Assembly: GCF_003575965.1 (NCBI RefSeq) | Contig: NZ_QWJJ01000018.1 | Span: 29,158 to 93,157, forward strand | Reading direction: 5' to 3' | Source of the DNA: Pseudooceanicola sediminis | GTDB lineage: Bacteria > Pseudomonadota > Alphaproteobacteria > Rhodobacterales > Rhodobacteraceae | DNA: 64,000 bases | Shown: positions 1,908 to 64,000 of the stretch, one piece after another | Position numbering within the stretch: position 1 is the stretch's first letter | Layout: each line of letters opens with the position of its first letter | The notes under the pieces: generated by a model | What the model was told of the DNA's origin: nothing | What the model saw: the letters and a program-made list of their open reading frames with translations, nothing else | The model's database searches: none | Program-made: the position numbers and the translations under genes

Positions 1908-2071
1908 CTTTGGGCACGGGGACCGTCCGTTGGCGCGCGCAGCCGCTCCATCGGACGGTCGTTTGGCTCCTCCGGTGGCTGCCCATGCCGCCGGCCATGT
2001 CTGTCCGCTGTCGCTGTCGCTTTCGCCGCCCACGCGCCCTCAGCCCAATGGCGCGTGAAAAGCGGATTTGG

Positions 2072-2167
2072 AAACCGTTCAGATACCGCTCTGATACCGT
2101 TCAGATACCGACGTTCGAATTCATTGATATCAAAGGCTTGCAGGGTTCGATGCGGCAGATACCGACA
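2072..2167 (-). repeat. Dispersed 11-bp-phased intergenic repeat, copy A
   Basis: On the minus strand this begins directly after the hipA stop codon with TGTCGGTATCTGC. It then has TTGATATCAA and GAATTCG, then ACGTCGG opening four direct subrepeats of 11 bp (CGGTATCTGAA, CGGTATCAGAG, CGGTATCTGAA, CGGTTTC). The distance from the first GTCGG to the second is 54 bp. Matching copies lie near 10384, 29636, 40313 and 63978. Confidence 0.9.
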
Positions 2168-3478
2168 TCAGCGCAGTCGCCCGGCAATCCGCAGCGCGTT
2201 TTCCTCGACCAGCGCGGCAGTCTGTTCGACATAGCCCGCCGTCGCGCCGGGCAGGGCGCTGACCGTCGCGGTGACCGCGACCCGCGCGCCGATCATGGCG
2301 TCAACCAGCTCCTGCACCCGGCTGCGCAGGTCGGCGGGGCGATAGCCCATGTCCCGCGCGATGTGGTCCCAGTGACGCGCCGCCATCGCCTCGGGCTTGC
2401 GACGTGTTCCGGCCAGGTTCTGCGCGAAATACTGCGTCACATGCGGCCAGGGCAGCACGCTGGACACATCATACAGCGGCGCCAGACGCGGCCCCGATCC
2501 GATCGGCAGCAGCAGGGAATAATTCTTTGCGTGCGCATCGGTATTGGCCACAAGGATGTTGAAGATCAGCTGGTCCAGCAGTGCCAGCGCATCGCCCGGC
2601 GGCAGAAAGTTTCCCGTACTCAGAAGGGTTTGCAGGCTGGGACCGGGCAGGGTGCCGCGTTCGTACTTGCGCCCCGGCGGCACGCCGTTGGCCTGCGCGA
2701 AATCCTCCTGGTGCAGGCGCAGCAGCTGCCCCGACGCGCCGACCCGCCGGTCATATCGCAGGGCGCAGATGGCGCTGCGCTGTCCCGTGCTCACAATGGT
2801 CGTTGCGGCGGACGTGATGCCGATGGCCTGCGCCAGATGCAGGCAATAGACCTCGTTCTCGGTGATGCCGGGCAGGGTGGGGTTGTCGGGCTTTAGGATC
2901 AGGGTCGAGGGCGCGCCGTCGCGCGGCACGGCCAGCCGGTCGCCCGGTTGCGGCAGCCGCAGAACCGGGGCGCCCTCCGGCCCCAGCACCGCCAGCGCAG
3001 ATTTCTTCTGCCCCCCCGCCAGCGATTGCCGCACGCCCTCTTCACCCACCAGAAACGGGCGGCGGCCTAAATCGTCAAAGTGACGTTCCAGCGCGATTGC
3101 AGGATCGTCGGTGTCGTACAGATCGACCAGCGGTGTATAGGCCCAGCCCGCCCTGTCACCCGGCACTCCGAACGACAGCGCCCCGGCCGTGTCGCCGCCG
3201 ATCTCGGTCAGCACGGCAAGGGTATCGGCGCGGTCCAACCCCAGGGAACGGGTCAGGATCTGCAACTGGTCTTCTTCGGGCAAGAGGTTGGCAAGCCAGG
3301 GGGAAATCACGTCAGACGGATAGGGGGCCACCTGCAATGGCATCGTTCGAGACAATGCAAATGCCCCCGGTGAGGCCTGCCACCTGTCGGTATAGGCAAA
3401 CGACAACTGTCCGTCCTGTGCCACGTGGATATCCCCGACGTGCAGGGCATCGAACCAGACCGCAACCCTGGCGTTCAT
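2168..3478 (-). CDS. hipA: HipA-type serine/threonine kinase toxin
   Basis: Full-length (436 residues) HipA-family toxin kinase. In Escherichia coli HipA phosphorylates glutamyl-tRNA synthetase and induces dormancy. The N-terminal HipA domain is followed by SLAGGQKKSAL (152-162, the region of the autophosphorylated serine), then STLILKPDNP (191-200, ATP-binding region). Next come the catalytic loop NTDAHAKN (312-319, with Asp314) and LYDVSS (335-340, metal-binding Asp337). All key residues are present, so it should be active. Its start overlaps the end of hipB by 4 nt (ATGA), giving translational coupling. HipB should neutralise the protein and repress the operon. Copy A of the dispersed repeat follows the stop codon directly. 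Confidence 0.93.
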   Translation of the reverse strand: MNARVAVWFDALHVGDIHVAQDGQLSFAYTDRWQASPGAFALSRTMPLQVAPYPSDVISPWLANLLPEEDQLQILTRSLGLDRADTLAVLTEIGGDTAGALSFGVPGDRAGWAYTPLVDLYDTDDPAIALERHFDDLGRRPFLVGEEGVRQSLAGGQKKSALAVLGPEGAPVLRLPQPGDRLAVPRDGAPSTLILKPDNPTLPGITENEVYCLHLAQAIGITSAATTIVSTGQRSAICALRYDRRVGASGQLLRLHQEDFAQANGVPPGRKYERGTLPGPSLQTLLSTGNFLPPGDALALLDQLIFNILVANTDAHAKNYSLLLPIGSGPRLAPLYDVSSVLPWPHVTQYFAQNLAGTRRKPEAMAARHWDHIARDMGYRPADLRSRVQELVDAMIGARVAVTATVSALPGATAGYVEQTAALVEENALRIAGRLR

Positions 3479-10383: not shown

Positions 10384-10470
10384 AGCGTCGGTGAAATCCG
10401 CGTAAACCATTGATATCGCCAGATTCCGACGTCGGTATTTGAACGGTATCCGAGCGGTAAGTGAACGGTT
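10384..10470 (+). repeat. Dispersed 11-bp-phased intergenic repeat, copy B
   Basis: It begins 3 nt after the amidohydrolase stop with GTCGG, then ATTGATATC, then ACGTCGG and the subrepeats CGGTATTTGAA, CGGTATCCGAG, CGGTAAGTGAA and CGGTTTT. The two GTCGG motifs are 44 bp apart. A T-rich run follows (TTTTATTTTT), so this copy could also end transcription. Confidence 0.88.
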
Positions 10471-10565
10471 TTATTTTTGCGGATCCTGCCCCGGGGCCGC
10501 GACGATGCCGACCAGTGCCGTGTACCGTTGCGGCGGCACCCCGTCAGGTGAGACTGCGGGGGGGC

Positions 10566-29534: not shown

Positions 29535-29635
29535 GGGAGGCGGCGGGTCGGCGGCCACCGGCACGCGGCAATTTGCGCGGGCAGGGTCGCGGCCAGCGGC
29601 CCTTGCCCGGCGCCGCGCGATCTTCGCCGGCGCAC

Positions 29636-29717
29636 CGTTCAGTTACCGCTCGGATACCGTTCAAATACCGACGTGCGAATTCAGGGATATCAGTAACTTA
29701 GCCCGCAGATACCGACA
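29636..29717 (-). repeat. Dispersed 11-bp-phased intergenic repeat, copy C
   Basis: On the minus strand: TGTCGGTATCTGC, then CTGATATC, GAATTCGC, then ACGTCGG and subrepeats CGGTATTTGAA, CGGTATCCGAG, CGGTAACTGAA and CGGTGCG. GTCGG motifs are 44 bp apart, as in copy B. Unlike the other copies it does not touch a stop codon; a terminator separates it from the ABC gene. Confidence 0.9.
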
Positions 29718-40312: not shown

Positions 40313-40418
40313 GCGGGACTGTCGGTATCCCTGGGACAACCCCCGCCAAGTCATTGAAATCGCTGGATTCGCACGTCGGTATTTGAACGGTATCGAAACG
40401 GTTTCCGAACGGTTTCAT
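40313..40418 (+). repeat. Dispersed 11-bp-phased intergenic repeat, copy D
   Basis: It starts 8 nt after the AroE-like stop: TGTCGGTATCCCT, then ATTGAAATC and GGATTCGC, then ACGTCGG and subrepeats CGGTATTTGAA, CGGTATCGAAA, CGGTTTCCGAA and CGGTTTC. GTCGG motifs are 54 bp apart, as in copy A. Confidence 0.88.
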
Positions 40419-63908: not shown

Positions 63909-63977
63909 TGGATATTTGGAACAGGGAAACATCAGGGGGAGGGTCGAGGTGGCGGGGTGGGGTGCCGGGAGGATGCA

Positions 63978-64000
63978 CCGTTCAGACACCGCTTTGATAC
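63978..64000 (-). repeat. Dispersed 11-bp-phased intergenic repeat, copy E (partial)
   Basis: Only the subrepeat end is in the window: on the minus strand GTATCAAAG, CGGTGTCTGAA, CGGTGCA. It is in line with the ends of copies A-D and should continue beyond base 64000. Confidence 0.75.

Follow-up and report, generated by a model that had tools for sequence, protein, structure and literature searches.

Arrays in the window of Pseudooceanicola sediminis

We analyzed a 64,000-nt stretch of the Pseudooceanicola sediminis genome (genome label G000), which we refer to as the window; its right edge is the end of contig C14. The genes scanned in the window include those for TRAP, sulfonate-binding, and HipA-like proteins. 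The window contains four complete arrays of short direct repeats and a fifth array that is cut off by the end of the window and of contig C14. In each complete array, an ACGT precedes four CGGT-type units with an exact 11-bp period, and the four copies that an initial annotation had placed at 2072-2167, 10384-10470, 29636-29717, and 40313-40418 are real. The fifth copy, which had been placed at 63978-64000, is also real, but only the edge of an array (63976 to 64000, minus strand) is present before the contig ends.

Array 1 (2071 to 2114, minus strand; matrix score 103.6) reads ACGT, at 2111-2114, then CGGTATCTGAA, CGGTATCAGAG, CGGTATCTGAA, and CGGTTTC. The left part of this element (2115 to 2167, minus strand) carries a TGTCGGTATC box at 2158-2167 and the A/T tracts TTGATATC / GAATTCG. 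The box directly abuts the stop codon of the HipA-like gene, which occupies positions 2168-3343. This gene is 8 residues shorter than its relative in genome G018; we considered the early gene end as a sign of insertion and dropped this idea, because the relative in G014 stops at about the same residue. Near the HipA-like gene, nine head-to-tail copies of the 7-mer TTCTGGC (1838-1900) form a simple tandem repeat that is unrelated to the arrays.

Element 2 is on the plus strand, with a degenerate box and then TAAACCATTGATATCGCCAGATTCCG in its left part (10384 to 10428), followed by array 2 (10429 to 10472; matrix score 100.0), which reads ACGT, CGGTATTTGAA, CGGTATCCGAG, CGGTAAGTGAA, and CGGTTTT. 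Array 3 (29631 to 29674, minus strand; matrix score 101.9) reads ACGT, CGGTATTTGAA, CGGTATCCGAG, CGGTAACTGAA, and CGGTGCG, and the left part of its element (29675 to 29717, minus strand) has TGTCGGTATC at 29708-29717 along with A/T tracts. The left part of element 4 (40320 to 40372, plus strand) likewise has TGTCGGTATC, at 40320-40329, and A/T tracts, leading into array 4 (40373 to 40416, plus strand; matrix score 98.2) with ACGT, CGGTATTTGAA, CGGTATCGAAA, CGGTTTCCGAA, and CGGTTTC. The left box that was initially described as shared is thus found in three of the four complete copies and is degenerate in the copy at 10384. Similarly, the GATATC/GAATTC patch of the initial description corresponds to A/T tracts within the consensus, but not to fixed boxes. 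Allowing up to three mismatches, the 18-mer CGGTATYTGAACGGTATC has nine matches in the window, compared to 0.02 expected.

A genome-wide repeat family

Across the 4.44-Mb G000 genome, CGGTATYTGAACGGTATC with up to three mismatches has 245 matches, compared to 9 for the reversed pattern, which places the motif above chance. A 70-position matrix detected 63 elements scoring >18 bits on the examined G000 loci and the window, and none on reversed sequence. The matrix consensus is TAAGcCaTTGAAAtCGCtaAATTCGAACG, TCGGTATCTGA, ACGGTATCtGA, GCGGTATCTGA, and ACGGTGC in succession, and whole elements are alike over about 75 to 95 bp within one genome. Given a count far above that of the reversed control and an alignment that extends past the 11-bp core, the initial assignment of these copies to a repeat family holds.

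Arrays comprise about 3 to 5 units of 11 bp, and there are dozens to hundreds of arrays per genome. The near-100% conservation of the core columns is partly by construction, because the arrays were found via the core; the interior of the unit is free, with the commonest base accounting for 41 to 61% at four positions in G000. To the left of the array, A/T content peaks about 10 bp apart in three genomes, near -29, -19, and -10 in G000 and the related Pseudooceanicola spongiae and near -28, -17, and -8 in the Rhodobacteraceae genome G191. Many G000 copies have a TGTCGGTATC-like box further left, and a subclass of copies has GTTAAC at both sides. Several arrays begin right after a stop codon or a terminator-like hairpin. 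In some places, whole G000 elements are repeated about 80 to 130 bp apart, with three copies 80 bp apart at locus L018 and two copies each at L150 and L154. G000 contig ends lie at or within ~0.5 kb of arrays at C1:135, C3:252, C6:9, C10:502, C27:18136-18324, and the end of C14, which suggests that arrays or clusters of elements break the G000 assembly.

Distribution and spellings of the arrays

The nearest relative bearing the array is P. spongiae HQ09 (G016), in which a 267-aa test protein is 94% identical, compared to 73 to 80% in the other 21 genus members. A search of genome contigs for exact GTCGGTATNNNNNCGGTATYYGAACGGT, in a collection from which records very near the window may be missing, returned 65 stretches: two from Flavimaricola marinus (G411), one from Streptomyces, and the remainder from P. 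spongiae. We set aside the Streptomyces match (L228), a single local array in that genome. With up to two mismatches, the looser unit TCGGTATNNNNNCGGTATNNNNNCGGT has 282 matches in G000, 262 in P. spongiae, 182 in each of G001 and G015, 100 in F. marinus, 47 in G017, and 9 in G019. The same search gave three or fewer matches in 15 of 21 Pseudooceanicola genomes, so in those genomes the system is either dispensable or present in unseen spellings.

We scanned 295 Rhodobacteraceae genomes for the CGGTAT-unit pattern at 11-bp spacing with up to one mismatch. At least one match was present in 29 genomes and at least four in 17, so the motif first noted in the window recurs as arrays across the family. 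In a sample drawn from the class, a stricter pattern matched in all three of the Rhodobacteraceae included and in none of the other 237 genomes.

The reversed-pattern control for the 295-genome scan had at least four matches in nine other genomes, with 62 in G191 and 41 in G113. None of these nine genomes has any forward match, and none of the 17 forward genomes has any control match. The second spelling (B) is CGTATGGCnnG, also with an 11-bp period. We searched for it directly in seven of the nine genomes (all except G162 and G256) and found 79 matches in G113, 69 in G191, and 16, 16, 10, 6, and 1 in the others, compared to 0 for the control; the spelling is thus borne out in six of the seven, G085 being the genome with a single match. 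At the threshold of at least four matches, spellings A (the first, CGGTAT-type spelling) and B are mutually exclusive in the sample: none of the 295 genomes has both. In G191 and G113, the array finder flagged a single A array each, and in F. marinus a single B array; the cores of the two spellings can overlap. Genome G130 has a mixed form, CCGGTATGGAA. A third spelling is probable, represented by CGTAACTCTTC CATAACTCTTT CGTAGTTCTTT upstream of an lpd-like gene in G023 (pattern CGTAACTCTTN), where it was seen once, at this one locus. Overall, the arrays form a system that spans the family and is written in more than one spelling, a property beyond the reach of the single window on which the initial annotation was based.

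In viral-collection contigs (IMG/VR), we found six matches. Two of these (L256 and L257), on high-GC contigs, resemble A-spelling arrays by eye, and the contigs are possibly prophage with host flank; the other four are by eye unrelated or local repeats. One G016-type 59-mer query had no match in PLSDB.

An array site upstream of lpd

Arrays of different spellings occur upstream of the same gene, which we read as lpd; Pfam gives just the pyridine nucleotide-disulphide oxidoreductase family. Upstream of this lpd-like gene, the first spelling is present in G327 and G000, the second in G025, and the third form in G023. Across the three spellings, nine genomes have an array that begins about 24 to 41 bp before the start of lpd. 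The panel of 30 genomes, 29 with a readable start, was chosen by hand and included the known array bearers G000, G327, and G113. G032 is doubtful, and G012 and G002 are by eye degenerate remnants; in the remaining panel genomes, which make up most of the loci, no array is visible upstream of lpd.

We also scanned 80 loci (319 kb, 30 of them lpd), retrieved by protein rather than by array, for self-similarity at fixed lags; the set leaves out the protein-fetched loci of G000 and G016, except for the G000 lpd locus. Only three noncoding stretches reached an identity of at least 22/33 at lag 11, and these are the G327, G025, and G023 arrays, at equal distance upstream of lpd and in three spellings. 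The lag-11 score of the G000 lpd array is 19. Among noncoding stretches, the counts at lags 10, 11, 13, and 14 are 0, 3, 1, and 2. When coding and noncoding stretches are totaled, the counts peak elsewhere: lag 11 has 3, compared to 11 at lag 9, 6 at lag 12, and 9 at lag 15.

Conserved array positions between species and genera

A P. spongiae counterpart with a matching flank and the same orientation was found for 39 of the 63 G000 elements, which is a lower bound because the P. spongiae set is incomplete; some of these pairs match on one flank only, and three are the tandem L018 copies. In several orthologous pairs, the alignment continues across the array into both flanks. We then compared 288 arrays by their neighboring genes, using genes from our own codon model and defining ortholog pairs by at least 60% identity and a gene within 400 bp of the array. 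For each comparison, we counted pairs in which the array is at the same gene end in the same orientation, flipped, or at the other end. The counts were 54:0:0 between G000 and P. spongiae, 5:0:0 between G017 and these two species, 21:3:1 (25 pairs) between genera with the same spelling, and 27:2:1 (30 pairs) between genera with spellings A and B. Pairs at one locus are not independent: counted by locus, the A-B comparison gives 8 same, 2 flipped, and 1 other, and lpd contributes 17 of the 27 same pairs. One small gene (88 to 91 aa) counts twice among the A-B pairs, once with the same orientation and once flipped, and a duplicate G130 entry was dropped. The identity and distance cuts were set after an earlier run; without the identity cut, that run gave 26 same, 16 flipped, and 38 other-end A-B pairs, and many of the non-matching pairs are low-identity matches among transporter-like paralogs. 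The housekeeping genes that adjoin arrays include gatB, serS, recR, and a chorismate mutase gene, all named by Pfam, as well as lpd in our reading.

Array positions are old, and the arrays are not mainly recent insertions. The conserved positions and orientation rule out a recent mobile repeat as the main reading, and the same conservation across species and genera speaks mostly against the initial suggestion that the arrays are the target of a mobile unit; in favor of that suggestion, two window arrays lie beside genes that were not found in P. spongiae. These two array-flanking genes have no match in P. spongiae at E ≤ 1e-30, so arrays are also gained at times. The gain would be due to spreading, to foreign DNA that brings in arrays of the same spelling, or to arrays forming in place. 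At window positions 2168 and 10383, we found no readable empty site, as the relatives are too diverged or rearranged. For the 791-aa gene at L147, the 19 genomes read among the 21 other Pseudooceanicola have no visible array; the downstream sequence differs, with no readable empty site.

Two P. spongiae loci, L048 and L075, have identical upstream flanks and are probably copies of a duplicated locus. L124 in G000 and L076 in P. spongiae each have an array predicted to fall within a coding sequence, and its place is the same in the two species.

Concerted change in place

We compared the junction of unit 1, that is, the three bases before unit 2, in 36 orthologous arrays of G000 and P. spongiae, leaving out the three tandem L018 copies. 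A terminal GT distinguishes the P. spongiae junction from that of G000 in 34 of the 36, and the remaining two arrays lack it in both species. To set the register, we took the four-unit window with the best fit, and in longer arrays this choice can be off by one unit. When all units are pooled, GT is the prevailing form in G017 (G92 T95) and in the combined set of four other genera (G88 T98). A natural order of events, with a polarity that we infer, would be an early change of units 2 and 3 to GAA, in the common ancestor of the two species, followed by unit 1 in G000 alone. Between these species, the junction difference is concerted and occurs at existing array positions.

Gene context, strand, and folding

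Arrays lie beside a gene 3' end in 48 of 57 cases in G000, 35 of 40 in P. spongiae, and 24 of 29 in G191. Mapping the copies to gene ends, as the initial annotation had proposed, thus reveals adjacency to 3' ends, but this only mildly exceeds the three in four expected for intergenic positions. More arrays lie in convergent gene pairs than in any other setting in G000 (22 of 63) and P. spongiae (15 of 45), whereas arrays in such pairs are rare in G191 (2 of 29). In G191, 22 of the 29 classified arrays are in tandem gene pairs, and six more arrays are in predicted genes and four at edges; our gene caller had G000 as its training genome, and its calls in G191 may contain errors. Within tandem pairs, the two array orientations number 14 versus 12 in G000 and 9 versus 11 in P. 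spongiae and, with more arrays, 14 versus 11 in G000, 14 versus 19 in P. spongiae, and 8 versus 14 in G191. We therefore detected no gene-orientation rule for arrays in tandem pairs of these three genomes. Atypical arrays at L050 and L076 in P. spongiae and at L120 and L122 in G000 are followed by a shared GCAGCATTT motif, and this subset may be promoter-associated.

The 63 P. spongiae sites have no strand polarity (best half-circle split, p 0.92), which argues against a KOPS- or Chi-like use with strand bias along the replichores. Their spacing is indistinguishable from random (CV 0.88 versus 0.97). For six combinations of strand and element, folding was no better than that of shuffled sequences (z-scores of -0.47 to 0.85), and no Rfam family matched over its gathering score in the window. 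In a search of the four window regions for inverted repeats, with 12 bp as the shortest detectable length, we found just a palindrome near array 2 that overlaps itself and, at 1921-1960, an unrelated pair.

Comparison with known systems

REP/BIME and MITE-type repeats are dispersed intergenic elements of about 100 bp that are at times clustered. The arrays differ from them in their lack of a stable fold, in their direct rather than inverted layout, and in a spelling that changes at conserved positions. Neither the fold z-scores nor the inverted-repeat search revealed a hairpin-folding palindromic unit of the REP/BIME kind, and the four window regions contain no terminal inverted repeats of at least 12 bp such as those of MITEs or insertion elements. 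The units abut at 11 bp, with no unique spacers of the CRISPR kind. Plasmid iterons are helically phased direct repeats beside AT-rich DNA; in contrast, the copies described here are dispersed on many contigs rather than confined to a single origin locus.

Further parallels come from proteins that bind direct repeats. In the available part of the source, CarH tetramers are described as binding three to four tandem, head-to-tail 11-bp direct repeats at promoter sites, with the unit motif nnnnTnnACAn (PMC9304148). Tandem 11-bp repeats are found here as well, but TnnACA does not occur twice at 11 bp in any of the 288 arrays, and the arrays are genome-wide and mostly away from promoters. As far as the accessible text of a second source goes, BldC binds asymmetrically, head to tail, to a variable number of 9-bp AT-rich direct repeats with strong DNA distortion (PMC5859096). 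Binding of this type is predicted here too, to units of 11 rather than 9 bp, and the BldC motif does not occur twice at 9 bp in any of the 288 arrays. Because neither the CarH nor the BldC motif recurs in register, the likeness is one of mechanism and not of membership.

The DNA uptake sequences (DUS/USS) of Neisseriaceae and Pasteurellaceae offer a different comparison. According to the portion of the text available, extended USS have AT-rich segments about helical turns away from the core (PMC12616744). The arrays resemble DUS/USS in their dispersed, lineage-specific dialects and in their concerted genome-wide change, but they consist of 3 to 5 tandem units with 245 loose matches in 4.44 Mb and not of a short motif in very high copy number. 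In the open-licence full-text literature, judging by titles and the starts of abstracts, no paper apparently deals with such a repeat.

Possible functions of the arrays

The presence of one unit per helical turn, the free positions within units, the variable number of units, and the A/T tracts are consistent with head-to-tail, winged-helix-type binding on one side of bent DNA. As predicted from sequence, each array would be a cooperative site for a putative sequence-specific protein, with protomers arranged head to tail, one per 11-bp unit, so that a single helix face would hold about 3 to 5 protomers. The A/T tracts phased ~10 bp apart on one side would favor bending. Dozens to hundreds of such arrays would mark fixed, mainly intergenic points on the chromosome. 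The specificity of the binder would have shifted between lineages and the arrays would have changed in place with it, giving rise to the dialects, and the most likely job of the system would be chromosome architecture or insulation at gene boundaries. We judge that this reading, in which a putative protein and its head-to-tail sites change together and architecture is the likely role, has about an even chance of being correct. A bolder version, namely a novel chromosome-marking system in Rhodobacteraceae with filaments of a dedicated candidate protein, conserved addresses, and a code rewritten between genera, is one we hold only tentatively. Changing specificity at about 100 sites would be hard for an essential factor, and this counts against the reading we prefer. 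The iteron-like, protein-binding nature proposed in the initial annotation is consistent with the 11-bp period, the concerted change, and the lack of RNA structure, although binding itself is a prediction; a nucleoid-protein array, also proposed there, is the leading candidate role.

The repeat family is established computationally, as are its period, dispersal, spellings, conserved addresses, and concerted difference. We infer protein binding, cooperativity, and co-evolution from these features, and among the possible roles we would rank chromosome architecture first and the marking of self-DNA second. As the best alternative, self-DNA marking would involve a surface or competence receptor that prefers the local dialect, with biased uptake and recombination homogenizing the marks genome-wide. 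Dialects particular to each lineage, copies dispersed on both strands, and housekeeping genes next to arrays would fit such marks, and with a biased drive, concerted change would require no site-by-site selection. The combination of a core and A/T-rich segments also resembles the extended USS as described in the accessible passages of the source, but tandem 11-bp units are not among the DUS/USS features given there (PMC12616744). Together with the modest number of matches to a larger element, where very many short motifs would be typical, and the location of the window arrays amid catabolic and transport genes, two of which were not found in P. spongiae, this leads us to regard self-DNA marking as unlikely. 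Less probable again is a non-autonomous REP- or MITE-like mobile repeat, copied in trans by a putative enzyme and landing at gene ends. The likeness of elements over their whole length within a genome, the tandem or nearby copies at L018, L150, and L154, and the two window arrays beside genes not found in P. spongiae could all be produced by such a repeat, but gene end and orientation are kept in 54 of 54 G000-P. spongiae pairs and 27 of 30 A-B pairs, and the alignment of several orthologous pairs runs from one flank through the array to the other. In addition, save for the palindrome near array 2, no inverted repeat of at least 12 bp spans an element, and the HipA-like gene end at element 1 shows no clear truncation when compared to the G014 relative.

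Alternatively, an ordinary global transcription factor of the CarH/MerR type, which recognizes 11-bp direct repeats, could use the arrays as its operators; PhoB/OmpR-type regulators are a further class with 11-bp direct-repeat operators. CarH-type repeats come in threes or fours in the part of the source available (PMC9304148), and the arrays that nine genomes carry shortly before the start of lpd would suit a promoter-proximal operator. However, arrays in both G000 and P. spongiae are most often found at convergent 3' ends, and given the absence of in-register CarH and BldC motifs from all 288 arrays, we consider ordinary operators improbable, slightly more so than the mobile repeat. The reading with by far the least credence is a 3'-end RNA element, raised in the initial annotation, that would act as a terminator or as a stability or processing signal. 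The arrays located right after stop codons or terminator-like hairpins are compatible with it, but both orientations occur in tandem gene pairs, fold z-scores are near zero, no Rfam match was found in the window, and the 11-bp period is that of the DNA helix.

In few bacterial systems can a change of DNA-binding specificity be followed at many sites simultaneously. Provided that one protein recognizes all of the arrays, they would offer a natural series for studying a regulator or chromatin protein that co-evolves with about 100 sites, and they would possibly represent a new chromosome-organizing or self-recognition system in marine bacteria. If the chromosome-marking reading is true, the arrays would exemplify, in bacteria, how a single DNA-binding protein co-evolves rapidly with its entire set of sites. 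At some of the same addresses as the P. spongiae and G000 arrays, other genera use other spellings.
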